NCBI RefSeq assembly: GCF_024758005.1
Contig: NZ_CP103288.1
Span: forward strand, 372,001 to 436,000
Reading direction: 5' to 3'
Length of the DNA: 64,000 nt
Source: Pseudarthrobacter sp. NS4
GTDB lineage: Bacteria; Actinomycetota; Actinomycetes; Actinomycetales; Micrococcaceae
This document shows, piece after piece, positions 7,168 through 33,230 of this stretch; position 1 is the stretch's first letter; each line of letters begins with the position of its first letter. Below the pieces are notes generated by a model. It made no database searches. It was not told the origin of the DNA and saw only the letters and a program-made list of their open reading frames with translations. The translations under genes and the position numbers were made by a program.

Positions 7168-8292
7168 ATGCGCATCCTTATTGCTCCGGATAAGTTCAAG
7201 GGTTCCCTGACGGCAGCCGAGGCGGCCGCCGCCATCGCAGAAGGCGCCCTGCGCGTTTACCCTGACGCGGTGGCCACCCAGTTCCCGATCGCTGATGGCG
7301 GTGAGGGCACGCTTGAGGCGGCTGTCGCCGCCGGCTACGAGGAGCGGCTCAACGCCGTGGTGGGTCCGATTCTTGCCCCCGTGGGGGCCGCCTGGGCGAT
7401 CCGTAAGGCCGGCGATGGCAGCGCCACCGCTGTCATCGAAACCGCGCAGGCCTCGGGCCTGGCCAGCATGGAGCCCACGCCTGACAACGCGCTCCGCGCC
7501 CACAGCTATGGGTGCGGCCAGCTCATCGCGGCCGCCCTTGACGCAGGCGCAACGGAAATCGTACTGGGGCTTGGCGGGTCGGCGATGACCGACGGCGGCA
7601 GCGGCGCCTTGCGCGCCCTCGGCCTGAAGCCGCTGGACGCCGCCGGCAACGTGGTGCCGCTGGGCGGGGGATTCCTCGCCGACGTGGCGTCGCTGGACAT
7701 CACCGGCCTGGATCCCCGGCTCGCCGCGACCACTTTCCGCATCGCCGTGGACGTCCGAAATCCCCTCTACGGGCCGTCCGGCGCCGCGCACGTCTTCTCC
7801 CCGCAAAAGGGCGCGGACCAGGACACGGTTGAACTGCTCGACGCAGGCCTCCGCAATTGGGCCTCGGTCCTGCGGGAAGCCACAGGGCGGGACGTGAACG
7901 TCCCTGGCGCGGGCGCCGCCGGCGGCTTCCCGGCGTCGTTCCTTGCCTTCACCGGCGCCGCGCTGGAAGGCGGCTTCGCGCTGGTGGCAGGGCTTACCGG
8001 GCTGGCGGAACAACTGGGCAACGCAGATCTGGTGATTACCGGCGAAGGGTCCATGGATTCCCAGTCGCTCACCGGCAAGGCGCCCATCGCCCTTGCGGAC
8101 GCCGCACGGGAGCGCGGCATTCCGGTGATTGTTGTGGCCGGCCGGATCCTGGTGACGCCGGAGGACCTCGCGCAGCACGGAGTGGTAAGCGCGGCCCAGC
8201 TGCTGGACGTGGCGTCGAGTCCGGAGGACGCGGTGGCAAACGCCGGAAAGTACCTGGCCTGGGCAACAACCCAAGTACTCGAAGGGGCCTAG
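7168..8292 (+). CDS. Glycerate kinase (GarK/GlxK type)
   Basis: About 374 residues, the usual size of the family. It opens with the signature MRILIAPDKFKGSLTAAEAA. Later blocks include LGLGGSAMTDGGSGALRALG and ITGEGSMDSQSLTGKAP, both characteristic of type 1 glycerate kinases, which phosphorylate D-glycerate with ATP to 2-phosphoglycerate in glyoxylate/glycerate metabolism. ATG 7168 is chosen because GGAG lies a few bases upstream; ATGs at 7156 and 7159 would add three or four residues. A hairpin terminator follows at 8305-8323. Confidence 0.93.
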   Translation: MRILIAPDKFKGSLTAAEAAAAIAEGALRVYPDAVATQFPIADGGEGTLEAAVAAGYEERLNAVVGPILAPVGAAWAIRKAGDGSATAVIETAQASGLASMEPTPDNALRAHSYGCGQLIAAALDAGATEIVLGLGGSAMTDGGSGALRALGLKPLDAAGNVVPLGGGFLADVASLDITGLDPRLAATTFRIAVDVRNPLYGPSGAAHVFSPQKGADQDTVELLDAGLRNWASVLREATGRDVNVPGAGAAGGFPASFLAFTGAALEGGFALVAGLTGLAEQLGNADLVITGEGSMDSQSLTGKAPIALADAARERGIPVIVVAGRILVTPEDLAQHGVVSAAQLLDVASSPEDAVANAGKYLAWATTQVLEGA

Positions 8293-8304
8293 TCCCGGTG
8301 GGAC

Positions 8305-8323
8305 CCGGCGTCGTAGACGCCGG
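8305..8323. terminator. Hairpin terminator between convergent genes
   Basis: An eight-base perfect stem (CCGGCGTC and GACGCCGG) with a GTA loop, followed by CCTTTA on the plus strand. It sits between the ends of glycerate kinase (+) and the MBL-fold hydrolase (-), so it may serve both. Confidence 0.6.
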
Positions 8324-8326
8324 CCT

Positions 8327-9070
8327 TTAGTGCGCGCCCACCCTCACGGCGCGGCTTACAGCGGCTTCCGCTCCCTGCGTCCAGGGCTTCCCGTGGCCGG
8401 AAAGCACCGTGGCTGCGCCGGTTGCGGCGATTGCTTTCAGAGACGCCAGGGCCTGCCCGGTATCCTTCGTGGCCGCTGACGCAACAATTTGAGGCCCCGA
8501 TTTACCCGTATAGGGGTCGAGGGTCACCAGGGCATCACCGCTGAGGACGGCGTCCCGGTCGGGGAAATGCAGGATGCAGTGCCCGTCCGTGTGGCCAGGA
8601 GTGTGGACAACAGTCGGACGCCCGGGCACCGGCACCGCAGCACCGGTGCCCAGCGGCAGGGTATCGGACACGCCCTTCACTGCCAATGCCCCGGCTGCCA
8701 CCATCCTGCCCAGGAGCGGCAGTGACCGCGGATGGGTGAAGGGGTAGAGGAACCGGTTGCGCTGGGGGGTGTACCGGTACGGGTGGGCGGCCAGATGCGA
8801 GTCACCGGAATGGACCAGCACCGGCACACCCCACTCCCCGTGGGCCCGCAGGGCAAACCCCACGTGGTCGAAATGGCCGTGAGTGAGGACCAGCGCCTTG
8901 ATCTCGTCCGGGCGCCGGCCGCGGTCAGCCAGGAGCTCCAGCAGCATGGACCACATGCTCGGCAACCCGGCGTCCACGAGGGTCAGTCCGTCCTGGTCCT
9001 CCACCAGGTAGCAGTTGACATTGGCATGCGTGATGAGGTGGATGCCGTCGGCCACGTCCCGGGTGATCAT
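8327..9070 (-). CDS. MBL-fold metallohydrolase
   Basis: 247 residues from ATG 9070 (MITRDVADGIHLI). The metallo-beta-lactamase signature THGHFDHVG supplies the HxHxDH metal ligands. Further ligands come from HTPGHTDGHC, the GDALVTLD Asp and LSGHGKPW. It belongs to the broad glyoxalase II-like/MBL hydrolase group; substrate is unknown. The start lies a few bases downstream of the stop of the small membrane-protein gene, so the two may be co-transcribed. Confidence 0.88.
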   Translation of the reverse strand: MITRDVADGIHLITHANVNCYLVEDQDGLTLVDAGLPSMWSMLLELLADRGRRPDEIKALVLTHGHFDHVGFALRAHGEWGVPVLVHSGDSHLAAHPYRYTPQRNRFLYPFTHPRSLPLLGRMVAAGALAVKGVSDTLPLGTGAAVPVPGRPTVVHTPGHTDGHCILHFPDRDAVLSGDALVTLDPYTGKSGPQIVASAATKDTGQALASLKAIAATGAATVLSGHGKPWTQGAEAAVSRAVRVGAH

Positions 9071-12614: not shown

Positions 12615-13631
12615 CTAAACCCGCGTGTCGGCGTCGTAAGTCAGGCCGATCTGGCGGCGGATCTCATCCAGGGCGGCCATGATGTCCACGCTCTCACGCG
12701 GGGGCAGCAGGGTGCCCGCGGTAAGGCCTTCCCGCACCAGCCGCTCCAGCTCGGCTGCCTGGTACTGCATGCCCCTGCTCTTCACCGGCTGGTGGAACTT
12801 TTCGAGGACATTCCCCGCGGTGTCGTATCGGGTGAAAGGCGTGGGGTTGTACCAGACCGGGTCGATCTCGACCCACCCCTTCGTGCCAATGATGACCGCC
12901 CGGTTGTTTCCCGCCGTGTCCAGCGAGCAGTCCACAAGCGCCTGCTGCCCATCCGCGTAGTCGAAAATCGCTGCCGTTTGGCGGTCCACCCCGGTGTCGG
13001 CCATGGCGGCGGTGGCCACAATCCGTTGTGGAGCTCCGAAGACGTCGAAGGCGAACGAGACCGGGTAGATGCCCAGGTCAAGGAGGGCTCCACCGCCGAG
13101 CGCGGGGTCGTTCAGCCGGTGGGCGGGGTCCTTGGGCAGGTTCTGGTTGTGGCTGGCCACCACTTTCCGGACTTCCCCCAAGGTCCCGTCCCGGACGATC
13201 TCACGCAGGCGTGCCATGTGCGGCAGGAAGCGGGTCCACATGGCCTCCAGCGCCACCAGCCCTTTGGCCTCCGCCAGCTCCACGATGTCCTGCGCTTCGC
13301 GGGCGTTGATGGTGAAGGCCTTCTCCACCAGCACATGCTTGCCGGCGTTCATCGCGAGCAGCGCATTGGCGTGGTGGAACACATGGGGAGTGGCAACGTA
13401 GACCACGTCCACCTCTGGATCAGCGGCCAGGTCCTCGTAACTGCCGTGGGCTGTGGCAATGCCGTACCGGTCGCTGAACGCCTGGCTCGACCCCAGGCTG
13501 CGGGAACCCACGGCCTGGACGGTAAATCCGTTGTCCAGCAGGTCCTGGGTCTGCAGGCCGGCGATGAAGCCGGTGCCCAGGATACCCCAACGGAGCTGCC
13601 CGTCGGAGGAGCCATTGTTGTGGTTGGGCAT
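12615..13631 (-). CDS. Gfo/Idh/MocA family oxidoreductase (last gene of the operon)
   Basis: 338 residues. WGILGTGFIAG is the dinucleotide-binding loop; the C-terminal half carries the GFO_IDH_MocA substrate domain. The usual EKP triad reads EKA here (GKHVLVEKAFTINA); the Lys thought to be catalytic is kept, while the Pro is lost. It probably oxidises or reduces a sugar or cyclitol with NAD(P). The start ATG lies one base after the stop of the upstream isomerase gene (TGACATG), indicating tight coupling. The longer open frame reading through from 13937 overlaps that gene and is not used. Confidence 0.9.
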   Translation of the reverse strand: MPNHNNGSSDGQLRWGILGTGFIAGLQTQDLLDNGFTVQAVGSRSLGSSQAFSDRYGIATAHGSYEDLAADPEVDVVYVATPHVFHHANALLAMNAGKHVLVEKAFTINAREAQDIVELAEAKGLVALEAMWTRFLPHMARLREIVRDGTLGEVRKVVASHNQNLPKDPAHRLNDPALGGGALLDLGIYPVSFAFDVFGAPQRIVATAAMADTGVDRQTAAIFDYADGQQALVDCSLDTAGNNRAVIIGTKGWVEIDPVWYNPTPFTRYDTAGNVLEKFHQPVKSRGMQYQAAELERLVREGLTAGTLLPPRESVDIMAALDEIRRQIGLTYDADTRV

Positions 13632-19121: not shown

Positions 19122-21065
19122 CTACTTCGTAACGGTTTCCCTACCGGGGCTTCCCCCGGGGCAGGAGCCTGAGTCAGGGCACGTTTCGCCGCATTCGTGC
19201 CGTGTCACGAGGTCGAACTGGACGCCGTTGTGTTGCTCGACTCCCGTGCGGATGGCCCGTTCCACCACGTTGTCGGCCAGCCGGCGACGCAAGGAGAGCG
19301 GGTCGCGGCGGAGGTCCTTGAGGAGAGCGAAACAGAGCAACAACATAACGATTACGAAGGGCAGGGCCGCCACAATAGTGATGCGTTGAAGTCCTGACAG
19401 TGCCGCGGCGGGTTCATCACCTCCGGCCAGGAGCATGACGGAAGCCACCGCGCCGGTGAGCAGGCCCCAGAAGATGACCAGGCGCCGGGATGGGTCATTG
19501 GCGCCGTTGGAGCTCAACGAAGCTATCACGATAGAGGCCGAGTCGGCACTGGTGACGAAGAAGTTTGCAATGAGGACCATGGCCAGCACTATGACGGCGG
19601 TGACTGCCCAACCCGGCATGCCCAGGTTCTTGATCACATCGAAGAGTGCTCCGTCGAAACTAATGGACGGGGCTCCGTCCACCATGGTAACCAGGCCCGG
19701 CGTGCCTGCCTTATCGGCCTCGCGCTGGATGTCGAAAGCTGCCCCGCCGAAGATGCTGAACCAGATGACGGTGACGACGCTGGGAACCAGCAGCACGCCC
19801 GTGACGAACTGGCGGATGGTGCGGCCGCGGCTGATGCGGGCAATGAACAGTCCTACAAACGGCGTCCAGGAGATCCACCATGCCCAGTAGAAGATGGTCC
19901 AGCTGGACATCCAGCTGCGCAGGGCCTCATCGCCTACGGCCTCCGTGCGGGACGACATTTCCGCGAGGTCGCGGGTGTAGTCACCGACGGCCGAAGGGAT
20001 CAGGTTGAGGATGAACAGGGTGGGACCTGCGACGAAGACGATCAAGGCCAGGGTGGCGGCCAGGATCATGTTGATGTTCGAGAGCCATTGGATGCCGCGG
20101 CTGATGCCCGAAACGGCGGAGGCGACGAAGCCGCATGTCAGGATTGCGATGATCACCACGAGTACCGGGGTGCCAATTTCTCCAAGCCAGCCGTTCGAGG
20201 TCAGGCCGTTGCCGATCTGCATTGCGCCCAGGCCCAGTGAAGCCGCAGTTCCGAAGAGGGTGGCCAAGATGGCCAGGATGTTGATGAATTTTCCGATAGG
20301 TCCTTCTACCCTCTTGATGCCGAAGAGCGAGGTGAAGGCTGCGGAGATGAGCTGCCTGCGGCCCAGGCGGAAGCTTCCGTAGGCCATGGCGATGCCCACT
20401 ACTGCGTACATCGCCCAAGGGTGCAGGGCCCAGTGGAAGATCGAGGTGGCCATAGCCGTTTGGATGGCCTCGGGGGTCCTTCCGTCCACCGTCCCCGGTG
20501 GTGGGGAGACGAAGTGGTAGAGGGGTTCGGCCACGCCGTAGAACATCAGCCCGATGCCCATGCCAGCGGCAAAGAGCATCGCGATCCAGGATACCGTCCG
20601 GAATTCCGGCTTCTCGCCGTCCTTGCCCAGCGGGATGTTGCCGAACTTGCCGAGGGCAAGCCACAGGACAAAGACCACAAAGATCGAAGCCGTGATCATG
20701 AAAAGCCACCCGGTGTACTCCATGACCCAGTTGAGGGCCCCGGTGGAGGTCGCGGCGAGGTTATCCTTTCCGACGAAGCCCCAGACCACAAAGGCGATGG
20801 CGAAGACGCCCGTGATCCCGAAGGTGACTTTGTCAAGGATGTGTCTGCGGTTACGGCGTTCGGAGACGGCCTGCTCCGTTTTGCCCTGGCGCAGCTCCTC
20901 CAGGATCTGCTCGTATTCTTCTGTCTCGGGGAGAACAGTTGTTTCGGTTTCTTGAAGTGTGCTTCCCGTGCTTTCGGGGTCCGGGCGTGCAGGAGCATCC
21001 AGCGGGTCGTTGTCCGCGGGACGTTCGTTCGGTTTGGGGGACGTTATTTCACTGTTGATTGCCAT
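19122..21065 (-). CDS. BCCT family transporter (choline/betaine type)
   Basis: 647 residues from ATG 21065 (MAINSEITSP), with AAAGGACC ahead. About 75 acidic, disordered residues precede twelve transmembrane helices. The BCCT signature WISWTPFVGLFIARISRGRT is exact, and MGIGLMFYGVAEPL is present. It should import a quaternary ammonium compound with Na+ or H+. The cytoplasmic C-terminus ends in an unusual Cys-rich stretch (HECGETCPDSGSC). A 61-residue open frame lies 37 bases upstream. Its position beside the Rieske oxygenase and dimethylglycine oxidase genes points to glycine betaine or a related N-methylated substrate as nutrient. Confidence 0.92.
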   Translation of the reverse strand: MAINSEITSPKPNERPADNDPLDAPARPDPESTGSTLQETETTVLPETEEYEQILEELRQGKTEQAVSERRNRRHILDKVTFGITGVFAIAFVVWGFVGKDNLAATSTGALNWVMEYTGWLFMITASIFVVFVLWLALGKFGNIPLGKDGEKPEFRTVSWIAMLFAAGMGIGLMFYGVAEPLYHFVSPPPGTVDGRTPEAIQTAMATSIFHWALHPWAMYAVVGIAMAYGSFRLGRRQLISAAFTSLFGIKRVEGPIGKFINILAILATLFGTAASLGLGAMQIGNGLTSNGWLGEIGTPVLVVIIAILTCGFVASAVSGISRGIQWLSNINMILAATLALIVFVAGPTLFILNLIPSAVGDYTRDLAEMSSRTEAVGDEALRSWMSSWTIFYWAWWISWTPFVGLFIARISRGRTIRQFVTGVLLVPSVVTVIWFSIFGGAAFDIQREADKAGTPGLVTMVDGAPSISFDGALFDVIKNLGMPGWAVTAVIVLAMVLIANFFVTSADSASIVIASLSSNGANDPSRRLVIFWGLLTGAVASVMLLAGGDEPAAALSGLQRITIVAALPFVIVMLLLCFALLKDLRRDPLSLRRRLADNVVERAIRTGVEQHNGVQFDLVTRHECGETCPDSGSCPGGSPGRETVTK

Positions 21066-21102
21066 GAGCGGGTCCTTTACTCGGCGAGTCATGGGCGTGC
21101 GT

Positions 21103-21288
21103 TTAAGCATGGCCTTGCGGCATTGATCCGGGCAGTTTGGGGGCCTGGCCCGGTTCGATGACCATGACGTTGCCGTCGGTGGCGAAAATTTCGCCGTTTC
21201 CGTATGGAAGACGGCCACAGGCGGAGCTGTGGCCAGTCAGAGTGCCTCCCCGCGCGGTGTTCTTACCGAACGGGCAGGGCTTGTGCAT
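21103..21288 (-). CDS. Small protein upstream of the BCCT transporter
   Basis: 61 residues starting MHKPCPFGKNTARGGT, from ATG 21288 with AGAGGTG five bases ahead. It has two cysteines (residues 5 and 25) in CPFGKN and SACGRLPYGNG, and a C-terminal half with a run of short strands (GEIFATDGNVMVIEPG). I do not recognise a family. The ribosome-binding site and tight spacing to the BCCT gene argue that it is real and co-expressed. It might be a metal-binding or transporter-associated protein; that is conjecture. Confidence 0.55.
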   Translation of the reverse strand: MHKPCPFGKNTARGGTLTGHSSACGRLPYGNGEIFATDGNVMVIEPGQAPKLPGSMPQGHA

Positions 21289-21520: not shown

Positions 21521-22723
21521 ATGCAGACGCTTGCGATCGTGGGAGCCTCCCTGGCCGGCCTTTCAGCCGCCCGGGCGGCACGCGCTCAAGGCTTCGCCGG
21601 ACGGCTGGTCATCATTGGCGATGAACAGCACCGTCCCTACGACAGGCCCCCTCTCTCCAAGGACTTCCTCTTGGGCACTATTACGTCCGAGGACCTGTTC
21701 CTGGAAACGGCTGACGACGGGCTCCAGGCGGAATGGATCCTTGGCGTTGCCGCCGTGGGCCTCGACGCCGCCAGCCGGACTATAAAGCTTTCAGATGGGC
21801 AATCGGTGGCCGCTGACGGAGTCGTCATCGCCACCGGTGCCCGTTGCCGCCAGCTTCCCGCACTGGCCGGCCTGGACAATGTCTCCAACCTCCGCACCAT
21901 TGCCGACGCCGAACGCCTGGCACCGCGGCTGGTTGCCGGGGACCGCATGGTCATCATCGGGGCAGGCTTCATCGGAGCAGAGGTTGCCTCCGCCGCCGCA
22001 GCACGCGGCATGGATGTCACCATGATCAACAACAACCCGCTCCCCTTCACGGCCCAGCTGGGACCGGACATGGGCGCAACGGTGGCCAGGCTGCACACCG
22101 CCAACGGCGTCAATCTCGTCTGCGGGACGGCGATCGAGTCCATCGACACGTCGGAAAGCTCGGTCACCGGGCTCCGGCTGGCTGATGGACGCTACCTTCC
22201 CGCCGATGTCATGGTGGTGGGAATCGGTGCCGAACCCAACGTGGAGTGGCTGGAAGGCTCCGGGGTTGAGCTCCGCGACGGCGTACTGTGCGACTCCATG
22301 GGACGCACAAACATCCCGGGCATCGTCGCAGTCGGAGACTGCGCTGCCTGGTTCGAGGTTGGCACGGGCAAGCACCGCCGGGTTGAGCACTGGACCGGCG
22401 CCCTGGAACGCTCGGCCCTCGCCGTCCAGGCGCTGCTGGACGACGATGCCCCGCAGCAGCCGCTGAAGCCGCCTTACTTCTGGTCTGACCAGCACGGGGT
22501 GAAAATCCAGTTCGCGGGCCATTCCGCCGGGTACGACCGGCTTGAGATAGAAGCCGGCAACCCGGAGGAGCACAGCTTCCTTGCCGTCTACTACCTAAGC
22601 GATACCCCGGTGGCAGTGCTTGGCATGAACCAGCCCAGGCTCTTCACCAAGTGGCGCCGCAGCATCGGGACACCCGTTGCCCGGCCGGCTCCTGCACCGC
22701 TTGCGGTTTCGGCAGCATCCTAG
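21521..22723 (+). CDS. FAD-dependent NAD(P)H:ferredoxin/Rieske reductase
   Basis: 400 residues. Two dinucleotide-binding motifs are seen: VGASLAGLSAARAARAQG (FAD; here GASLAG) near the N-terminus and IGAGFIGAEVASAAAARG (NADH) near residue 150. RPPLSKDFL and the FAD-closing VAVGDCA complete the pattern of the BphA4/PdR-type reductases. It would pass electrons from NAD(P)H through a ferredoxin to the Rieske oxygenase encoded just downstream. GGAAGGAAATT gives a good ribosome-binding site. It is divergent from the BCCT transporter genes. Confidence 0.9.
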   Translation: MQTLAIVGASLAGLSAARAARAQGFAGRLVIIGDEQHRPYDRPPLSKDFLLGTITSEDLFLETADDGLQAEWILGVAAVGLDAASRTIKLSDGQSVAADGVVIATGARCRQLPALAGLDNVSNLRTIADAERLAPRLVAGDRMVIIGAGFIGAEVASAAAARGMDVTMINNNPLPFTAQLGPDMGATVARLHTANGVNLVCGTAIESIDTSESSVTGLRLADGRYLPADVMVVGIGAEPNVEWLEGSGVELRDGVLCDSMGRTNIPGIVAVGDCAAWFEVGTGKHRRVEHWTGALERSALAVQALLDDDAPQQPLKPPYFWSDQHGVKIQFAGHSAGYDRLEIEAGNPEEHSFLAVYYLSDTPVAVLGMNQPRLFTKWRRSIGTPVARPAPAPLAVSAAS

Positions 22724-22855: not shown

Positions 22856-24085
22856 TTGACCACAGAAGTGACCACCCCGAGTTTGATTCCTACGTTGTCG
22901 GGTTTGACGTATGTGGATGAGGCGGTGTTCCGTGCGGAGCAGGAGCGGATTTTTGAGCAGATGTGGTTCTGTGCCATCCGTTCTGCGGATCTGGACAAGG
23001 CCGGTGCGTGGAAAACGGTTCAGATCGGCCGGGAGTCGGTGTTGATCAGCCGTACCCGCAAGGGCGCTATCCGCGCTTTTTACAATGTCTGCCGGCACCG
23101 TGGTGTGAAGCTGTGCATGGAGGAGCAGGGCGAAGCTGCCCGTTCGTTCCAGTGCCCGTACCACGCCTGGACGTATGACTTTGAGGGCAAGCTCATCGCC
23201 GCGCCGAACCTGACCAAGATGCCGGACATCGACCGGGACGAGTACGGCCTGGTGAAGGTCCACGTCCGCGAGTACCTGGGTTATGTGTGGGTGTGTTTGG
23301 CTGATGAGCCGCCGTCGTTCGAAGAGGACGTCATGGGCGCCATCGAGGAGCGCCTGGGTGACCTGAAGGCGATCGAGGGCTACGACGTGGCGAACCTGGC
23401 CCTGGGCCGGCGGATCAGGTACGACGTGAAGGCGAACTGGAAGCTCATCATTGAGAACTTCATGGAGTGTTACCACTGTGCCACCATCCACCCGGAACTG
23501 ACCGAGGTGCTGCCGGAGTTCGCCGACGGGCTGGCCGCGCAGTACTTTGTGGGCCACGGTGCGGAGTTCGGTGAGGACGTCAAGGGCTTCACCGTGGACG
23601 GCTCCGAGGGCCTGGACGTGATTCCCGGGGTGGGCGAGGACCAGGACCGTCGCTACTACGCGATCACCATCAAGCCCACCGTGTTCGTGAACCTGGTCCC
23701 GGATCATGTGATCATCCACCGGATGTTCCCGCTGGCCGCTGACCACACCATCGTCGAATGCGACTGGCTCTACCTGCCCTCGGTGGTCGAGTCCGGCAAG
23801 GACGTCTCGGCGTCCGTGGAGCTGTTCCACCGGGTGAACATGCAGGACTTCGACGCGTGCGAGCGCTGCCAGCCCGGCATGGCCTCCAAGACCTACGCCA
23901 AGGGCGGCGTGCTGGTCCCCAGCGAGCACCACATCGGCGCGTTCCACGACTGGATCCAGGAAAAAGTCGGCGACGTGCAGCACTCAGGGGACGTCCGCAT
24001 GGGCATCACCGCGGACACCCCGCCGCTGATCGAACGGGCCCAAACCCTCGAACGCAACGAAGCCCACACAGCCCCGGCCTCCTAA
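22856..24085 (+). CDS. Rieske non-heme iron oxygenase, alpha subunit (betaine demethylase type)
   Basis: 409 residues. The start is TTG 22856, fixed by GAGGAGG five bases ahead. The Rieske [2Fe-2S] cluster motif is CRHRGVKLC then CPYHAW (C-x-H, 17 residues, C-x-x-H). The catalytic iron site is ENFMECYHCATIHPEL. This is the GbcA/stachydrine-demethylase branch of ring-hydroxylating oxygenases, which remove a methyl group as formaldehyde. With the transporter, reductase and dimethylglycine oxidase nearby, glycine betaine to dimethylglycine is the most likely reaction. No ferredoxin gene is visible in the window. Codon use in the first half favours G/T third positions compared with neighbours. 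Confidence 0.9.
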   Translation: MTTEVTTPSLIPTLSGLTYVDEAVFRAEQERIFEQMWFCAIRSADLDKAGAWKTVQIGRESVLISRTRKGAIRAFYNVCRHRGVKLCMEEQGEAARSFQCPYHAWTYDFEGKLIAAPNLTKMPDIDRDEYGLVKVHVREYLGYVWVCLADEPPSFEEDVMGAIEERLGDLKAIEGYDVANLALGRRIRYDVKANWKLIIENFMECYHCATIHPELTEVLPEFADGLAAQYFVGHGAEFGEDVKGFTVDGSEGLDVIPGVGEDQDRRYYAITIKPTVFVNLVPDHVIIHRMFPLAADHTIVECDWLYLPSVVESGKDVSASVELFHRVNMQDFDACERCQPGMASKTYAKGGVLVPSEHHIGAFHDWIQEKVGDVQHSGDVRMGITADTPPLIERAQTLERNEAHTAPAS

Positions 24086-24175: not shown

Positions 24176-25066
24176 TCAGGCGGGAAGCTGGAGGGTGTCG
24201 TTTTCCTGGCGTGCCGCATTGCGGGGGCGCCCTACCCGGTCCCGGCCCGCGTAGACGTTGAGGCTGTGTCCCCGGCTGAATCCCACCAGGGTCACTCCCA
24301 TTTCTTCAGCGAGGTCGGCGGCCAGGCTTGATGGAGCACTGACGGCGGCCAGGACCGGGATCCCTGCCAGGGCGGCTTTCTGGACGAGCTCGAAAGAGGC
24401 CCGGCCGGACACCTGCAGTACCGTGCCCCGCAGTGGCAGCAGCCCCTGCCGCAGTGCCCAGCCCACCACCTTATCGACGGCGTTGTGGCGGCCTACGTCC
24501 TCCCGCACGCACAGCAGTTCCGGTTCGTCGCCGTCCACCCTGAACAGGCCAGCCGCATGGACGCCTCCCGTCTTGTCGAAGACGGCCTGGGCTTCGCGCA
24601 GCCTCTCCGGCAATTCGGCCAGGACGTCGACGGGTATCCGCAGCCCGTCCTGGGAGGGGTCGAAGTGAAGGGTCTTGCGGACGGCGTCGATGGACTCGGT
24701 CCCGCAGATGCCACAGGAACTGGATGTGTAGACGTGCCGCATGGTGTCCGGCATGGGCACGTCCGGCGCCAACTGGGCGTCAACCACGTTGAAGGTCTGG
24801 ACGTCGCCATTCCTTCCGGCGCAGAAGCGCAGGGAGACCAGCTCCGACTGGTGGCGGATGACGCCCTCGGAGACGAGGAATCCGGCCACCAGGTCGAAGT
24901 CATCCCCGGGAGTCCTCATGGTGACGGAAAAGGAGCGGCCGGAAAGCCTGATCTCGAGCGGTTCCTCAGCGGCCAGGACGTCTTCCTTGAACCGGACGGG
25001 GTGTTCGGTGGCGGACCCATCCAAACGGAACCGGTGGATCTTCCGGCGCTGGGTCATGCGTGCCAT
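24176..25066 (-). CDS. fdhD: Formate dehydrogenase accessory sulfurtransferase FdhD
   Basis: 296 residues. The persulfide-carrying motif is intact (SSSCGICGTESID). REDVGRHNAVDKVVG and the C-terminal RGHSLNVYAG match the family. FdhD passes sulfur to the bis-MGD molybdenum cofactor, which activates formate dehydrogenase. The start overlaps the end of moeA by 13 bases. No formate dehydrogenase subunit is in the window. Upstream purU makes formate, which explains the placement. Confidence 0.95.
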   Translation of the reverse strand: MARMTQRRKIHRFRLDGSATEHPVRFKEDVLAAEEPLEIRLSGRSFSVTMRTPGDDFDLVAGFLVSEGVIRHQSELVSLRFCAGRNGDVQTFNVVDAQLAPDVPMPDTMRHVYTSSSCGICGTESIDAVRKTLHFDPSQDGLRIPVDVLAELPERLREAQAVFDKTGGVHAAGLFRVDGDEPELLCVREDVGRHNAVDKVVGWALRQGLLPLRGTVLQVSGRASFELVQKAALAGIPVLAAVSAPSSLAADLAEEMGVTLVGFSRGHSLNVYAGRDRVGRPRNAARQENDTLQLPA

Positions 25067-26373
25067 GGTGTGTGCTCCCGCCTGTTCCTGGATTCGGTGG
25101 TTTCAGTTGGCTGCGTCCACGGAAGCGGGAGAACGGGAACAGGTTCGCCTGAGTCCACGCCGGCCGGCGGGACGGCCATAACGCCGTCGGCCCACGCCAG
25201 GCCGCGCATCATGCCGGGACCCGTGTGCTGGACCGGAAAGGCCAGCCCGGAAAGGAACCTGCAGGGGATCAACCGCGTGCGTCCCCCGTCAGGGCCGATG
25301 TCGCTTCCGGAGAGGACATGGTGCAACGGAGGCAGCTGCCGGCCTTCAAGGGCCGCCAGCAGCGGCGCGGCGATGGTCAGGAGCGCCATCATGGCTGCCA
25401 GCGGATTCCCCGGCAACCCGACGACGAAGCGGCCATCAGGGAGTCCGGCCAGCACAGCGGGGTGGCCGGGGCGCATGGCGATCCCGTCCAGCAGCAGTTC
25501 GCCGCCCAGGGCGGCTATGGCCGCACGGAAGTGGTCGGTGCCGGACCGGCCGGTGCCACCTGTTGTGATGATGACCTCGGCGCGTTCACCGGTCGCCTCG
25601 GCAGGGCCATTGAGGGCGGAAAGCCATTCGCTGAAGGAGTCGCCGATCCTAACGGGGCTGAGGGGAGTGCCTCCGAGCAGTGAAACAACCGTACCCAGTT
25701 GCGGGCCAAAGGTGTCCCTGACCTGTCCAGGTGCGGGAAGGCCTTGTGTCACCACTTCGCCGCCAGTGAGTACGACGGCGACTGTGGGCCGGGCGCGGAC
25801 CTGTACTTCGTCGTGGCCCGCTACAGCTGCCAGGGCTATGTGCCCCGGGTTGAGGACGGTGCCGACGGGCAGGAGTACCTCGCCCGCCCCGGCCTCTTCG
25901 CCTGCGGGGCGTATGTGCTGGCCGGGGTGTGGCTCGCCTTGGCGTGCGTCGGGGCCAAGTGTGAGAACGGCATTGCCCGCTCCGTCCGTGGCCACTTGGC
26001 CGCTTTCCCTGCGCAGGATGGCAGCGGCACCGGCCGGTACCAGGCCTCCGGTCGCAATGACCCTCGCATGGTTCGGCGGCAGGGCCCCGGGGGGCGGTAG
26101 GGGCTGTCCGGTATTGGGAAGGAGCCAGGGGCCTGGACCGTTCACCGCCCAGCCATCCATTGCGGACGAAGCATAGTGTGGAAGGTCCTGCAGTGCGGTG
26201 ACAGCGCGGGTCAGGACGCGGCCCGCGGCATCGCCCAGCGGGAGGGACACCGCCGGGAGCGGCCCCGCGCAGTCGAAGGCCAGCTGGCGGGCTTCAGCCC
26301 ACGTTGGAGACGCGCCGTGCACGCCCGGTGCGCAGGAAGCGGATGCACCGGGTAGGAGTTCTTCGGTGAACAT
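25054..26373 (-). CDS. moeA: Molybdopterin molybdenumtransferase MoeA
   Basis: 439 residues, slightly long for the family (about 400). The N-terminal region contains HYASSAMDGWAV, the hallmark of MoeA. The nucleotide-binding core has ITTGGTGRSGTDHF, and later GLPGNPLAAMM. It inserts molybdate into adenylylated molybdopterin. AAGGAA lies ahead of ATG 26373. It shares an operon with fdhD. A long imperfect inverted repeat (26423-26510) separates it from metF, so this pair may have its own control. Confidence 0.94.
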   Translation of the reverse strand: MFTEELLPGASASCAPGVHGASPTWAEARQLAFDCAGPLPAVSLPLGDAAGRVLTRAVTALQDLPHYASSAMDGWAVNGPGPWLLPNTGQPLPPPGALPPNHARVIATGGLVPAGAAAILRRESGQVATDGAGNAVLTLGPDARQGEPHPGQHIRPAGEEAGAGEVLLPVGTVLNPGHIALAAVAGHDEVQVRARPTVAVVLTGGEVVTQGLPAPGQVRDTFGPQLGTVVSLLGGTPLSPVRIGDSFSEWLSALNGPAEATGERAEVIITTGGTGRSGTDHFRAAIAALGGELLLDGIAMRPGHPAVLAGLPDGRFVVGLPGNPLAAMMALLTIAAPLLAALEGRQLPPLHHVLSGSDIGPDGGRTRLIPCRFLSGLAFPVQHTGPGMMRGLAWADGVMAVPPAGVDSGEPVPVLPLPWTQPTETTESRNRREHTPWHA

Positions 26374-26550: not shown

Positions 26551-26592
26551 TGATATTTCATTCAAATACGAAAGATATATCAGTTATATTAG
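26551..26592. promoter_or_regulatory. AT-rich GntR-type palindromes downstream of metF
   Basis: TGATATTTCA (26551-26560) and GATATATC (26574-26581) followed by a TTATATTAG stretch. They resemble sites at 32442-32476 and 33305-33327. They lie just after the metF stop codon and ahead of the moeA leader, and could drive regulated transcription of moeA-fdhD. Confidence 0.5.
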
Positions 26593-27449
26593 TGAGTTGG
26601 GACACCTTTGTCCAGCTTTTCCGGAGCCGGAATGGGAACTGCCGGAACCCGCTCCAGCAGGCCGGGCAGCCCCGAAAAATCGTTGAAAGTGTAGATGTGG
26701 AAGCCGGCGAAGAGTGGGTGGCCCCCGAGCTTTCGGTGTACCTTCCCGGCAAGTCCAGCGCTGTCATACTGCAGCAGGTGCTGCCGGTTCCACAGCGCCC
26801 TGGCCATTCCGGTTCCATGGGCCAGTTTGATGGAGCGGCCCACTCCGAGCCGCGCTGCCATCGCAACCAGCTTCCCGGTCGAAACGGGTCCGGGGATCCC
26901 GACCCATACGGGCAGATGCGGCCCGCTGTGGACCAGGCCGTCGAGGTAGCGGGTGATGTCGTCAGCTGAGAAGCACATCTGCGTGACCAGGGAAGAAGCC
27001 AGCGGCGCCTTGGAGTCCAGGCTCGCTTTCAACCCGCCTGCAGTGATCCCCGGATGTCCTTCCGGGTAACCGGCGATACCGATCGTGAGAAGTGGGGAGA
27101 ACGCTTTTACGGCGTCCAGGAGCTGCCCGCTCCAGGCGTACGGTCCTTCGGGTGTCCGGCGGTCGCCGGCAACAATAAACAGCTCTGATACTCCGGCCTC
27201 GAGCAGTTGCCGCAGGAAGCCGTGCAGCTCTTCCTCGCTGCCAATACTCCGCGCAGCGACGTGCGGCACCACGCTGTACCCCAGACGTGCCAGCCGGACG
27301 GAGGCAGCGACCGTCCGTGCCGGGCCATGGTGGGGAAGGCACGTGACGCTGACGGAACCGGGGGCCGGGTAAACCTTTGGGAGCTGGTCCAGCAGGCTTG
27401 CCGACGGGACAACTTCCAGCCTCACCCGTACACCCGGTTCCGCGTCCAT
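26589..27449 (-). CDS. Methylenetetrahydrofolate reductase family protein (MetF-like)
   Basis: 286 residues, single TIM barrel. Aligned by eye with E. coli MetF: an early Glu in RLEVVPS, Asp in IVAGDRRTP, the motif IAGYPEGHP, and Gln in VTQMCF, where the usual TQFFF is partly changed. It should bind FAD and reduce methylene-THF to methyl-THF, or run a related folate reaction. Its start follows the folD stop by seven bases, inside the purU-dmgO-fchA-folD operon. It may be a C1-catabolic paralogue rather than the methionine-pathway enzyme. Confidence 0.85.
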   Translation of the reverse strand: MDAEPGVRVRLEVVPSASLLDQLPKVYPAPGSVSVTCLPHHGPARTVAASVRLARLGYSVVPHVAARSIGSEEELHGFLRQLLEAGVSELFIVAGDRRTPEGPYAWSGQLLDAVKAFSPLLTIGIAGYPEGHPGITAGGLKASLDSKAPLASSLVTQMCFSADDITRYLDGLVHSGPHLPVWVGIPGPVSTGKLVAMAARLGVGRSIKLAHGTGMARALWNRQHLLQYDSAGLAGKVHRKLGGHPLFAGFHIYTFNDFSGLPGLLERVPAVPIPAPEKLDKGVPTH

Positions 27450-27456
27450 TGCTTCC

Positions 27457-28347
27457 TTACCCGGCGGTTTCCATGACCTGTGCAGCCAACATGGGCGAAG
27501 GAGACTGGTTCCGCGCCGCTTCCACCGTGTGGAGCAGCAGCAGCGCCGTGGTGACGGACCCGACTCCGCCGGGGACCGGAGTCAGTGCAGCCGCGACGCC
27601 GCGTACGCTGGCCTCGTCCACATCGCCCACCAGGGAACCGTCGGGGAGGACGTTCGTGCCGACGTCGACCACTACGGTCTTGCCGGAAACATCGCTGCCG
27701 GTCAGCAGGCCGGTGCGTCCGGCGGCGACCACCACCACGTCCGCCTCCCTGGTGTATTTCCCGAGTGGTCCTGACCTGGAATGGCAGACTGTGACGGCAG
27801 CGTCCCGTGCCAGCAGCAGGAGGGACAGCGGCTTCCCCACAACGGCGGAACGGCCAACCACGACGACGTTCCGGCCCGCCACCGGGATGTCGTAGTGGTC
27901 GAGGATTTCGACGACGGCCCGGGCGGTGGCAGGTGGGAACGCGGGCTGCCCCACGGCCAGCCGTCCAAGGCTCAGCGGATTGGCGCCGTCGATGTCCTTT
28001 TCAGGGGCGATGAGGCCCACCAGCGCATCGGCCCGGACATCCGCCGGAAGGGGAGTCTGCAGGATGATGCCGTTCACAGACGGCTCTGCGCTCAGGTCCC
28101 GCAGCACACTGGCCAGCACCTGCTCTGTGGCGTCATGGCCCAGGTCAATGATCCGGCAGTCAATGCCGGCACGTTCCGCTGCGCGTTCGATGGAGCGGAC
28201 GTACCAGAGCGTTGATTCGTCGTCTGTAGCCATGACGACGGCGAGCACGGGACGCAGGCTGTCCTGTTCGAGACTCCTGGCCTCATCCTGGGTCTTCTCC
28301 CGGATGATCCCGGCAAGTGTCTTTCCCGAAAGCGTTGCAGTGCTCAA
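27457..28347 (-). CDS. folD: FolD-like methylenetetrahydrofolate dehydrogenase, cyclohydrolase Lys missing
   Basis: 296 residues. Family blocks are clear: WYVRSIERAAERAGI, GIILQTPLPADV, PEKDIDGANPLSLGRL, VVVGRSAVVGKPLSLLL and PVPGGVGSVT. The Tyr is kept (Tyr49), but the Lys four residues later, essential for cyclohydrolase activity in FolD/MTHFD, is Ile53. The Gln and Asp of the folate pocket remain. It is predicted to be a dehydrogenase that makes methenyl-THF but may not hydrolyse it. Its ATG overlaps the stop of fchA by four bases, and FchA could supply the missing step. Confidence 0.92.
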   Translation of the reverse strand: MSTATLSGKTLAGIIREKTQDEARSLEQDSLRPVLAVVMATDDESTLWYVRSIERAAERAGIDCRIIDLGHDATEQVLASVLRDLSAEPSVNGIILQTPLPADVRADALVGLIAPEKDIDGANPLSLGRLAVGQPAFPPATARAVVEILDHYDIPVAGRNVVVVGRSAVVGKPLSLLLLARDAAVTVCHSRSGPLGKYTREADVVVVAAGRTGLLTGSDVSGKTVVVDVGTNVLPDGSLVGDVDEASVRGVAAALTPVPGGVGSVTTALLLLHTVEAARNQSPSPMLAAQVMETAG

Positions 28348-28970
28348 CGGAGGATCCTTTCACGTACGCGTGCCACCAGGGAATCGGCGGCGAGGACAAT
28401 CTTGTCCTCAAGGCCGTCCGTCTGATTCGACAGGAGCAACCGTGTCCCGGGGTCCTTGATGGCCACTACGTTGATGTCGATATTGACGCGTGCGGTGGTT
28501 GCGGCCGCGCGGGCGGCATCGGCGGCGGCGGCGACGTCACTGATGACGTTGGCATTTGCCACCTCAAACAGCTCTGTGGCGAGTTCCACCACAGCGCCGG
28601 CAACTTCGATGAGTTGTGCCGGTGTCTGTGCCGCCTGGACGAGGGCCGCATCAATGGTCTGGGCCCGGGTGGCCTTGAGCTCCTCTGTGGTGGAGGGGAG
28701 CTTGTAAGCGTCAATGACGCCCTGGAAGGCCTGCTCGTCCGCGTCGGCCAGGCGCAGCGCCTCACTGACGAGCCCGTCGGAGGCCTCCGTGATCCGCTGC
28801 ACCAGTGCCGCGTGCTGCTCATATTTGCCGCCCGTGGTGTACCGCGCCACCATGGCCACCAGGGCGGCGCCCTGCGCGGCGTGCAGGGCGCCAGCGGCAC
28901 CGCCGCCCGGGGTGGGCTGACGGGACGCGAGCCGGGTGAGGTAGCTGTGGATTGTCTCTGCGCTGATCAT
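28344..28970 (-). CDS. fchA: FchA-type methenyl-THF cyclohydrolase / formimido-THF cyclodeaminase family
   Basis: 208 residues, the same length I recall for Methylobacterium FchA. The N-terminus TPGGGAAGALHAAQGAALVAMV is the glycine-rich FTCD_C folate-binding signature. The helical body ends in ANVISDVAAAADAA. No formiminotransferase domain or histidine-degradation gene is near, so cyclohydrolase (methenyl-THF to 10-formyl-THF) is more likely than cyclodeaminase. It sits three bases after dimethylglycine oxidase and overlaps folD. Confidence 0.9.
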   Translation of the reverse strand: MISAETIHSYLTRLASRQPTPGGGAAGALHAAQGAALVAMVARYTTGGKYEQHAALVQRITEASDGLVSEALRLADADEQAFQGVIDAYKLPSTTEELKATRAQTIDAALVQAAQTPAQLIEVAGAVVELATELFEVANANVISDVAAAADAARAAATTARVNIDINVVAIKDPGTRLLLSNQTDGLEDKIVLAADSLVARVRERILR

Positions 28971-28973
28971 GGC

Positions 28974-32425
<3,452 letters not shown>

Positions 32426-32476: not shown

Positions 32477-32549
32477 GTTGATGATCAGCGTATACTGGTC
32501 GCAGAGTGAGGTCAATAGTTCATTTCCGGCCCGGGGAAGGGGTCCTAGC

Positions 32550-33230
32550 GTGGCATTTGAAACTTTGGCAGTCGCGGATGATGTCAGTCGGAAGTCCCTG
32601 GCGGATGTTGCCTACGAAAGCATCCGGGACCGGCTCCTCATGCTGGAAATCAAGCCCGGTGAACTCCTCAACGATGACGTCCTTGCCAAATCGCTCGGTG
32701 TCGGCCGTACCCCCGTCCGCGAAGCCCTTAAGCGGCTCGAACTGGACCGCCTGGTGGTTACCTATCCCCGCCGCGGTACCTTCGCCACCCGGGTGGACGT
32801 CACGGATCTTTCATTCATTTCGGAAATCCGCGCCCAGCTTGAGCCCCTGGCGGCCGCCCGGGCAGCGCGGATAGCTACCCAGGGTGTCCGGGAACAGTTG
32901 CGGGCCATCCTCAGTGACGTCGAGGTGTTTGATGCCGCCGCCGCCTCCGTAACCGAAACCCTGAGGCTGGACGCCCGCGTGCACCAGGGGATCTACGCTG
33001 CGGCCGCCAACCCCCACCTCGAGGACATCCTGATCCGCTACGACAACCTGGCCACCAGGATCTGGTGCATGGTCATTGACCGCCTTCCGGACCTGTCCCG
33101 CCACGTCCACGAACACCTGGACTTGCTCCGCGCGGTCATTGATGGTGACGAGGACAAAGCCGCTGAGCTCGCGCGGGTTCATGTGAGCGGCTTCGAACAC
33201 GCGGTCCGCGAGGCACTCTTCAGCGCGTAG
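32550..33230 (+). CDS. GntR family transcriptional regulator (FadR/VanR-like)
   Basis: 226 residues from GTG 32550 (GGAAGGGG upstream). A start at 32478-32481 would lie upstream of the TATACT box at 32491, so it is rejected. The winged helix (SLADVAYESIRDRLLMLEIKPG, then LGVGRTPVREALKRLELDRLV) is followed by an FCD ligand domain with the expected Asp/His metal-site residues (DARVHQGIYAAA, HEHLDLLRAV and a late His in RVHVSGFEHA). It is very probably the regulator of the betaine/one-carbon operon. The inducer is unknown; dimethylglycine, sarcosine or a folate intermediate are guesses. Confidence 0.9.
   Translation: MAFETLAVADDVSRKSLADVAYESIRDRLLMLEIKPGELLNDDVLAKSLGVGRTPVREALKRLELDRLVVTYPRRGTFATRVDVTDLSFISEIRAQLEPLAAARAARIATQGVREQLRAILSDVEVFDAAAASVTETLRLDARVHQGIYAAAANPHLEDILIRYDNLATRIWCMVIDRLPDLSRHVHEHLDLLRAVIDGDEDKAAELARVHVSGFEHAVREALFSA

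Follow-up and report, generated by a model that had tools for sequence, protein, structure and literature searches.

The pairing of a monofunctional FolD with a separate FchA is already known, and the pair described here is a further case of it that is useful for re-annotation. Aluri et al. 2016 (Microbiology 162:145-155) reportedly found a Clostridium perfringens FolD without cyclohydrolase activity that is complemented by a separate FchA. That organism is a fermentative anaerobe with Fhs, and it is likened to the present locus by the pairing, not by the site residue. Yeast MTD1 (1edz), a monofunctional NAD-dependent dehydrogenase, is 22% identical to the FolD of this locus, and to our knowledge it has no FchA partner. 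Arthrobacter gene clusters for dimethylglycine and sarcosine, in which a dimethylglycine oxidase (DMGO) stands with C1-folate genes, are said to have been described by Meskys et al. 2001. The locus of A. globiformis NBRC 12137 (L054) carries the same FchA-FolD(Ile) pair as the window, the whole 64-kb stretch of soil actinobacterium DNA analyzed here. In Wood-Ljungdahl clusters, fchA and folD are adjacent or lie in one cluster, as they do in the window (extract of PMC3584212); in Clostridium autoethanogenum they are locus tags RS07840 and RS07845 (extract of PMC9040625). These clusters belong to a reductive C1 pathway and have Fhs, whereas the window encodes a predicted oxidative chain with PurU. 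The fchA gene of Clostridioides difficile was scored essential (extract of PMC12548448). A literature search over titles and the beginnings of abstracts, in which subscription journals are thinly covered, returned no report of a Lys-less Arthrobacter FolD or of a rule based on the residue triad considered below.

A FolD without the Conserved Lysine

The gene folD2 (27457..28347, minus strand) starts with TTG and encodes a predicted FolD-family methylene-tetrahydrofolate (THF) dehydrogenase of 296 aa. Both domains of the FolD/MTHFD family are present, PF00763 with 93.2 bits (gathering threshold 32.8) and PF02882 with 183.8 bits (threshold 27). The protein has the FolD fold. The translated ORF reads WYVRSIERAA at the conserved motif, with Tyr49 encoded by TAC (28203-28201, minus strand) and Ile53 by ATC (28191-28189, minus strand). 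Ile53 aligns with Lys54 of the E. coli enzyme and Lys56 of the human enzyme, and in the five PDB relatives that were aligned, among 27 matches, the column is ungapped and always Lys. The replacement of Tyr-x3-Lys by Tyr49-x3-Ile53 had been noticed in the initial annotation, and both its position and the residue are correct. FolD2 has Thr46, Tyr49, Ile53, Gln97, and Asp120 at the key sites and thus departs from the bifunctional FolDs in the Tyr-x3-Lys hallmark and in two positions of the Ser46-Lys53-Gln97 triad. The motif PGGVGPMT reads PGGVGSVT. The best NCBIfam FolD model scored 257.4 bits (cut-off 421) among the 25 models listed of 30, all of them below cut-off, a result of little weight on its own.

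Among the residues linked to the cofactor, FolD2 has Arg166 and Ser190. An arginine at the first of these positions is tied to the use of NADP+. A corresponding rule for serine, applied here to Ser190, is given in part of PMC9173628. The cofactor of FolD2 is probably NADP+.

The isoleucine is a stable feature of the relatives. Across 66 related loci (genome_contigs), the site residue is Ile in 64, Lys in one (L069), and Met in one (L070, Veillonella magna). Arthrobacter-type FolDs (>65% identical; n = 65 including the window) have Ile in 63 cases and a gap at the site in two, and the codon is ATC in 32, ATT in 25, and ATA in 6. Since all three codons are in use, it is the residue and not the codon that is held. 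A sequencing slip at Ile53 was ruled out by the 64 of 66 loci and by the three different codons. An FchA match occurs in 63 of the 64 Ile-type loci, and PurU and DMGO matches in 58. The one locus lacking FchA, L060, holds an additional copy, its strain having three FolDs and a single FTCD_C; at 7749-8861, a short FchA remnant is fused in frame ahead of an intact FolD(Ile), and an intact fchA-folD pair is found at L041 of the same strain. Another FolD(Ile) without FchA nearby is carried by plasmid pYJN5-2 (L151).

The window's genome (4.44 Mb, single contig) has two FolDs, two FTCD_C genes, and one Fhs. Its other FolD (C1:1320079) lies 0.92 Mb away, has the lysine (YVSMK), and is 34% identical to FolD2. 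In genomes that pair the FolD2 type with a further FolD, Lys was present in all six further FolDs that were read (five genomes plus the window's; the other FolD of G008 was left out).

The FchA Partner

The gene immediately upstream, fchA (28344..28970, minus strand), overlaps folD2 by 4 bp and encodes a stand-alone FTCD_C protein of 208 aa, a predicted methenyl-THF cyclohydrolase. The family PF04961 matches with 168.5 bits (cut-off 24.5), and no further Pfam domain is present. NF045657 (FchA) is the sole NCBIfam match and, at 138.8 bits, stays below the equivalog cut-off of 275. The best match of solved structure is a methenyl-THF cyclohydrolase (7vg4, E 3.7e-28). The earlier description of the overlapping upstream gene as FchA type is borne out. 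As in the C. perfringens pair, a separate FchA is present in the genome, here as the gene adjoining folD2.

PF04961 is named after the cyclodeaminase half of FTCD, an enzyme of histidine breakdown, and together with the missed NF045657 cut-off this could point to formimino-THF cyclodeaminase, or some other folate activity, as the function of FchA rather than cyclohydrolase. Three observations speak against such an assignment and make it very improbable: formiminotransferase and histidine-degradation families are absent from the nine cluster proteins scanned, the top solved chain is a cyclohydrolase, and a homologous pair lies inside a purine operon of a Saccharimonadales MAG. The identity of FchA as an FTCD cyclodeaminase was rejected on these three grounds. 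A second, divergent FTCD_C gene, 34% identical to FchA, is located 41 kb from the pair (G000:C1:358757-359242; also L215:8623-9330). It has no telling neighbor, and no histidine genes were detected by Pfam in the ten ORFs scanned, itself included.

Surrounding Gene Cluster and Proposed Pathway

On the minus strand, the pair is preceded by PurU, a formyltetrahydrofolate deformylase (31520..32425; TIGR00655 317.2 bits, above cut-off), and, after 53 bp, by a DMGO-like FAD/GcvT fusion (28974..31466; DAO, FAO_M, GCV_T, and GCV_T_C domains), which is 88% identical to that of A. globiformis L054 and ends 3 bp before fchA. Past folD2, after 7 bp, follows a distant methylenetetrahydrofolate reductase (MTHFR)-like protein (26589..27449; PF02219 30 bits, cut-off 24; TIGR00676 47 bits, below cut-off), then, after 215 bp, a MoeA-like molybdenum cofactor protein (25054..26373, family matches), and, with a 13-bp overlap, the formate dehydrogenase accessory protein FdhD (24176..25066; NF001943 337.1 bits, above cut-off). 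The MTHFR-like protein could be a methylene-THF reductase that has diverged, or a protein of another kind; relatives with 60%–68% identity recur beside this cluster in other Arthrobacter.

A BCCT transporter of the betaine/choline type (19122..21218, minus strand) matches PF02028 with 580 bits and TIGR00842 above cut-off. The plus strand encodes a GbcA-like, glycine betaine monooxygenase-like Rieske oxygenase (22856..24085), for which NF058607 is the best NCBIfam match at 221.3 bits (below the cut-off of 670), a ferredoxin reductase-like flavoprotein (21521..22723; best NCBIfam match NF042949, below cut-off), which may supply electrons to the Rieske enzyme, and a GntR/FCD regulator (32478..33230, family match) divergent to purU. 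With activities inferred from families, the cluster can be read as one for the breakdown of glycine betaine and dimethylglycine, with the methyl carbon routed to formate.

In this pathway, DMGO would be the likely source of 5,10-methylene-THF, FolD2 would oxidize it to methenyl-THF, probably with NADP+, and FchA would open the ring to give 10-formyl-THF, which PurU would split into formate and THF. The conversion of formate to CO2 would fall to a molybdenum formate dehydrogenase that is encoded at another site and hinted at by FdhD and MoeA, and the Lys-type FolD of the genome would serve biosynthesis. None of the genome's Molybdopterin (PF00384) genes lies inside the 64-kb window; the remote ones comprise two of the FdhF/YdeP type and one with NasC as the best match. 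We consider it probable, judging from families, residues, and gene order, that FolD2 has a single function, as 5,10-methylene-THF dehydrogenase, and that FchA is a separate methenyl-THF cyclohydrolase; jointly they would equal one bifunctional FolD and be dedicated to burning the methyl carbons of glycine betaine.

Plasmid pAO1 of Paenarthrobacter nicotinovorans (locus L213) encodes PurU, a DMGO-like oxidase (MABO), and a FolD with Lys (YVAGK), and no FTCD_C/FchA was found within the 10.8 kb read. The folD and purU products of pAO1 appear on nicotine (extract of PMC6214936). The order of reactions after the DMGO-like oxidase is the same as in the window, whereas the lysine and the absence of FchA nearby set this locus apart. 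To judge from these genes, the same chain can run on a Lys-type FolD without a neighboring FchA. Another P. nicotinovorans strain (L037) has the FchA-FolD(Ile) pair, so that FchA acting in trans is possible for the pAO1 pathway. The version of this cluster in Arthrobacter sp. ISL-72 (L009) also includes an FdhF/YdeP-type oxidoreductase, along with a glutathione-independent formaldehyde dehydrogenase and FolE (GTP cyclohydrolase I; 12824-13540, above cut-off), as if folate supply belonged to the operon.

Role of the Lysine and of the Residues around It

Conservation was evaluated in 108 FolD representatives (72% identity), 78 of the Lys type and 30 without the lysine. Ser46, Lys53, and Gln97 are each invariant in 78/78 Lys-type representatives. 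The 30 Lys-less representatives keep Ser46 in 2 cases and Gln97 in 5, Tyr49 in all 30, and Asp120 in 27. It had been assumed at the outset that the lysine is needed for the cyclohydrolase and not for the dehydrogenase reaction, a premise for which human MTHFD1 mutants are reportedly the basis. The proposed human cyclohydrolase site consists of Ser49, Lys56, and Gln100, in addition to Tyr52 and Pro102 (extract of PMC6443876); the first three were mapped to positions 46, 53, and 97 through the silkworm numbering in that paper and the alignment made here. The Bombyx mori K53A enzyme is active in both reactions, with a kcat/Km of 0.051 versus 0.043 in the wild-type for the dehydrogenase and of 0.097 versus 0.13 for the cyclohydrolase, and S46A and Q97A also retain both activities, with a cyclohydrolase kcat/Km of 0.11 and 0.22, respectively, versus 0.13 (PMC6443876, Table 2). 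Thus, no single residue of the triad is needed in that enzyme. In the relevant part of PMC9173628, MTHFD1 mutant data are read as a binding role of the lysine in the dehydrogenase step, with its role in the cyclohydrolase step left open, and a simulation of MTHFD2 led to the proposal of a proton relay via water, in which a role of the lysine could not be excluded. A table in PMC13156950 assigns the lysine two roles, proton shuttle for the cyclohydrolase step and activator for the dehydrogenase step. Given the active K53A enzyme and the assignment of the lysine to both steps, the premise is contested. Ile53 by itself is no proof of a lost cyclohydrolase; the argument is carried by the joint loss of residues, their conservation elsewhere, and the link to FchA.

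The silkworm mutants, the water relay in the MTHFD2 simulation, and the retention of Gln97 and Asp120 are what would be expected if FolD2 were still bifunctional, with ring opening that does not need the lysine (water relay, Gln97) and with FchA merely adding capacity at high flux. The invariance of Lys53 and Ser46 throughout the Lys-type representatives argues against such dispensability, as does the strong link between the lack of Lys and FTCD_C, including its presence in nearly all genomes whose sole FolD match is without Lys (both described below), and we regard a bifunctional FolD2 as unlikely.

Lysine State and FTCD_C in Actinomycetota

The survey covered 156 FolDs from Actinomycetota, selected through FolD matches, and an FTCD_C/FchA gene within 1.5 kb was counted as a neighbor; many of the loci have flanks of only 1.5 kb, and the genomes are in part incomplete MAGs. 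Sample A comprised every other genome of a hand-compiled list, trimmed to 79 genomes, with 86/86 FolD rows read. Sample B comprised 70 listed rows, the first 30 plus 40 hand-picked from further down once the FchA rows were known, and was thus not blind; it contains the window's own FolD and that of G142, whose FchA neighbor was already known. None of the 128 Lys-type FolDs has an FTCD_C neighbor, as opposed to 18 of the 28 Lys-less FolDs (Fisher 8e-17, a figure that ignores kinship). By sample, neighbors occur at 0 of 64 Lys and 14 of 22 non-Lys FolDs in sample A and at 0 of 64 and 4 of 6 (the window's own being one) in sample B. Anywhere in the genome, FTCD_C accompanies 25/28 Lys-less and 26/128 Lys-type FolDs, and in these 26 cases the coordinates place it on another contig or >100 kb off. 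Because the lack of Lys goes with FchA, two proteins for two reactions is the best reading, and this part of the initial annotation stands; the origin of the pair by splitting in this operon does not, as shown below.

The expectation that a Lys-less FolD always co-occurs with fchA did not survive the survey: 10 of the 28 are without an FTCD_C neighbor, 3 of them in genomes without any FTCD_C match. Two of the exceptions, G235 and G050, have Leu at the site and FTCD_C on a different contig. Seven represent one FolD type from a single family (f15); for five of these, FTCD_C occurs at another place in the genome, and for two, in G149 (87% complete) and G277 (66% complete), the genome gave no match. 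The tenth is a divergent FolD homolog in G182 that lacks Tyr49 as well. The 28 Lys-less FolDs include one with Ala and FTCD_C adjacent (G260) and one with Val and no adjacent FTCD_C (G106).

The f15 type (L281, L282, L283, L284, L285, L286, and L313) is without both Lys and Gln (YERHVRRL / LVLRPL), has no FchA neighbor, and mostly shares its genome with a Lys-type FolD; in its three tree representatives, Asp120 is changed to Glu. The divergent homolog of G182 (L314, G182:C19:212084-218308) is FolD-like with about 28% identity, is without Tyr49 and Lys, and comes from a 9.9-Mb actinomycete genome.

Descent of FolD2

In a quick maximum-likelihood tree, 78/78 Lys rows are set apart by a single branch (SH-aLRT 91, short of the starred level). 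The rows nearest to FolD2 come from Planotetraspora (L064, Streptosporangiaceae), another actinomycete genus (G235), and the Saccharimonadales MAG (L067). When the window, L064, and L073 were constrained to group with eight actinomycete Lys rows, the log-likelihood fell by 84.5 units; this grouping is rejected (p-AU 0.0117), in a tree with long branches and with constraint groups that were named after the tree had been seen. This rejection indicates that FolD2 was probably not made from the local Lys-type FolD.

According to the initial annotation, the operon seemed to have split a bifunctional enzyme into two. In its local form, an actinomycete bifunctional FolD would have lost the lysine recently, after fchA entered the operon, which would fit the co-residence of both FolD types in Arthrobacter genomes. 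The 34% identity between FolD2 and the local Lys-type FolD, the placement of all Lys rows on one side of a branch, and the rejected actinomycete grouping leave this history with very little to recommend it, and the nearest rows, from Streptosporangiaceae, another actinomycete genus, and Saccharimonadales, likewise speak against the proposed split.

Without a root, the tree does not tell a gain of the lysine from a loss, and since one state change explains all Lys-less rows, the association between the lack of Lys and FTCD_C is without independent replicates. Tentatively, and with more doubt than confidence, Lys-less FolD plus FchA might be a module of ancient origin and one of two deep bacterial FolD forms, older than the bifunctional enzyme or parallel to it, that moves across lineages and pathways, from purine synthesis in Saccharimonadales to methyl dissimilation in Arthrobacter. 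If so, loss of the Ser-Lys-Gln triad would be a sequence rule marking many "bifunctional FolD" annotations as monofunctional.

Genomes with a Lys-less FolD Alone

A single FolD match, without Lys, was found in 21 genomes, and FTCD_C is present in 20 of them. The set is made up of the 14 adjacent cases of sample A and G277 (by PF00763), of G235, G050, G310, and G142 from sample B (by protein search), and of the Saccharimonadales MAG and Veillonella magna (by PF00763); G043 and G250, which are among the 21, have a second match by protein search that is absent by PF00763. The Saccharimonadales MAG (L067 5743-11063) carries purK, purE, fchA, folD(Ile), purF, and purN in one run, the best match of PurN being 110.9 bits (cut-off 150.1). 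It has one FolD (Ile) and one FTCD_C, and neither a second FolD nor an Fhs match was detected in this MAG, which may be incomplete. No route to 10-formyl-THF other than the pair was thus found in it, and the run lends itself as a natural test of the pair's capacity to make 10-formyl-THF unaided.

These 20 of 21 genomes, the Saccharimonadales purine run, and the triad in 78/78 Lys-type representatives favor a monofunctional FolD2 with FchA as its cyclohydrolase. So do the neighbor counts of the survey, the lysine in the FolD of pAO1, which has no FchA nearby, the lysine in six of six further FolDs, the case of Veillonella magna, and the essential score of C. difficile fchA. The retention of Tyr49, Gln97, and Asp120 in FolD2, the FchA score below the NF045657 cut-off, and the 10 of 28 Lys-less FolDs without a neighbor weaken it, as do the active silkworm mutants, the lack of independent replicates, and the 26 of 128 Lys-type FolDs with FTCD_C elsewhere in the genome. 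Genes, gene order, residues, conservation, and the association were observed, whereas every activity, the cofactor, and the reason for keeping the two reactions on separate proteins are predictions; as suggested in the initial annotation, the separation may speed flux or prevent coupling of the reactions in one active site. If the division of labor is as proposed, the residue triad tells monofunctional and bifunctional FolDs apart and would correct the habit of annotating them as bifunctional; many close relatives of FolD2 are labeled "bifunctional" by their sources. The distinction is relevant to flux models and to engineered C1 pathways in which FolD or FchA genes are chosen, and the occurrence of both FolD types in one Arthrobacter genome allows a direct comparison. 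In Veillonella magna, the sole FolD has Met at the site, and its FTCD_C gene adjoins Fhs.
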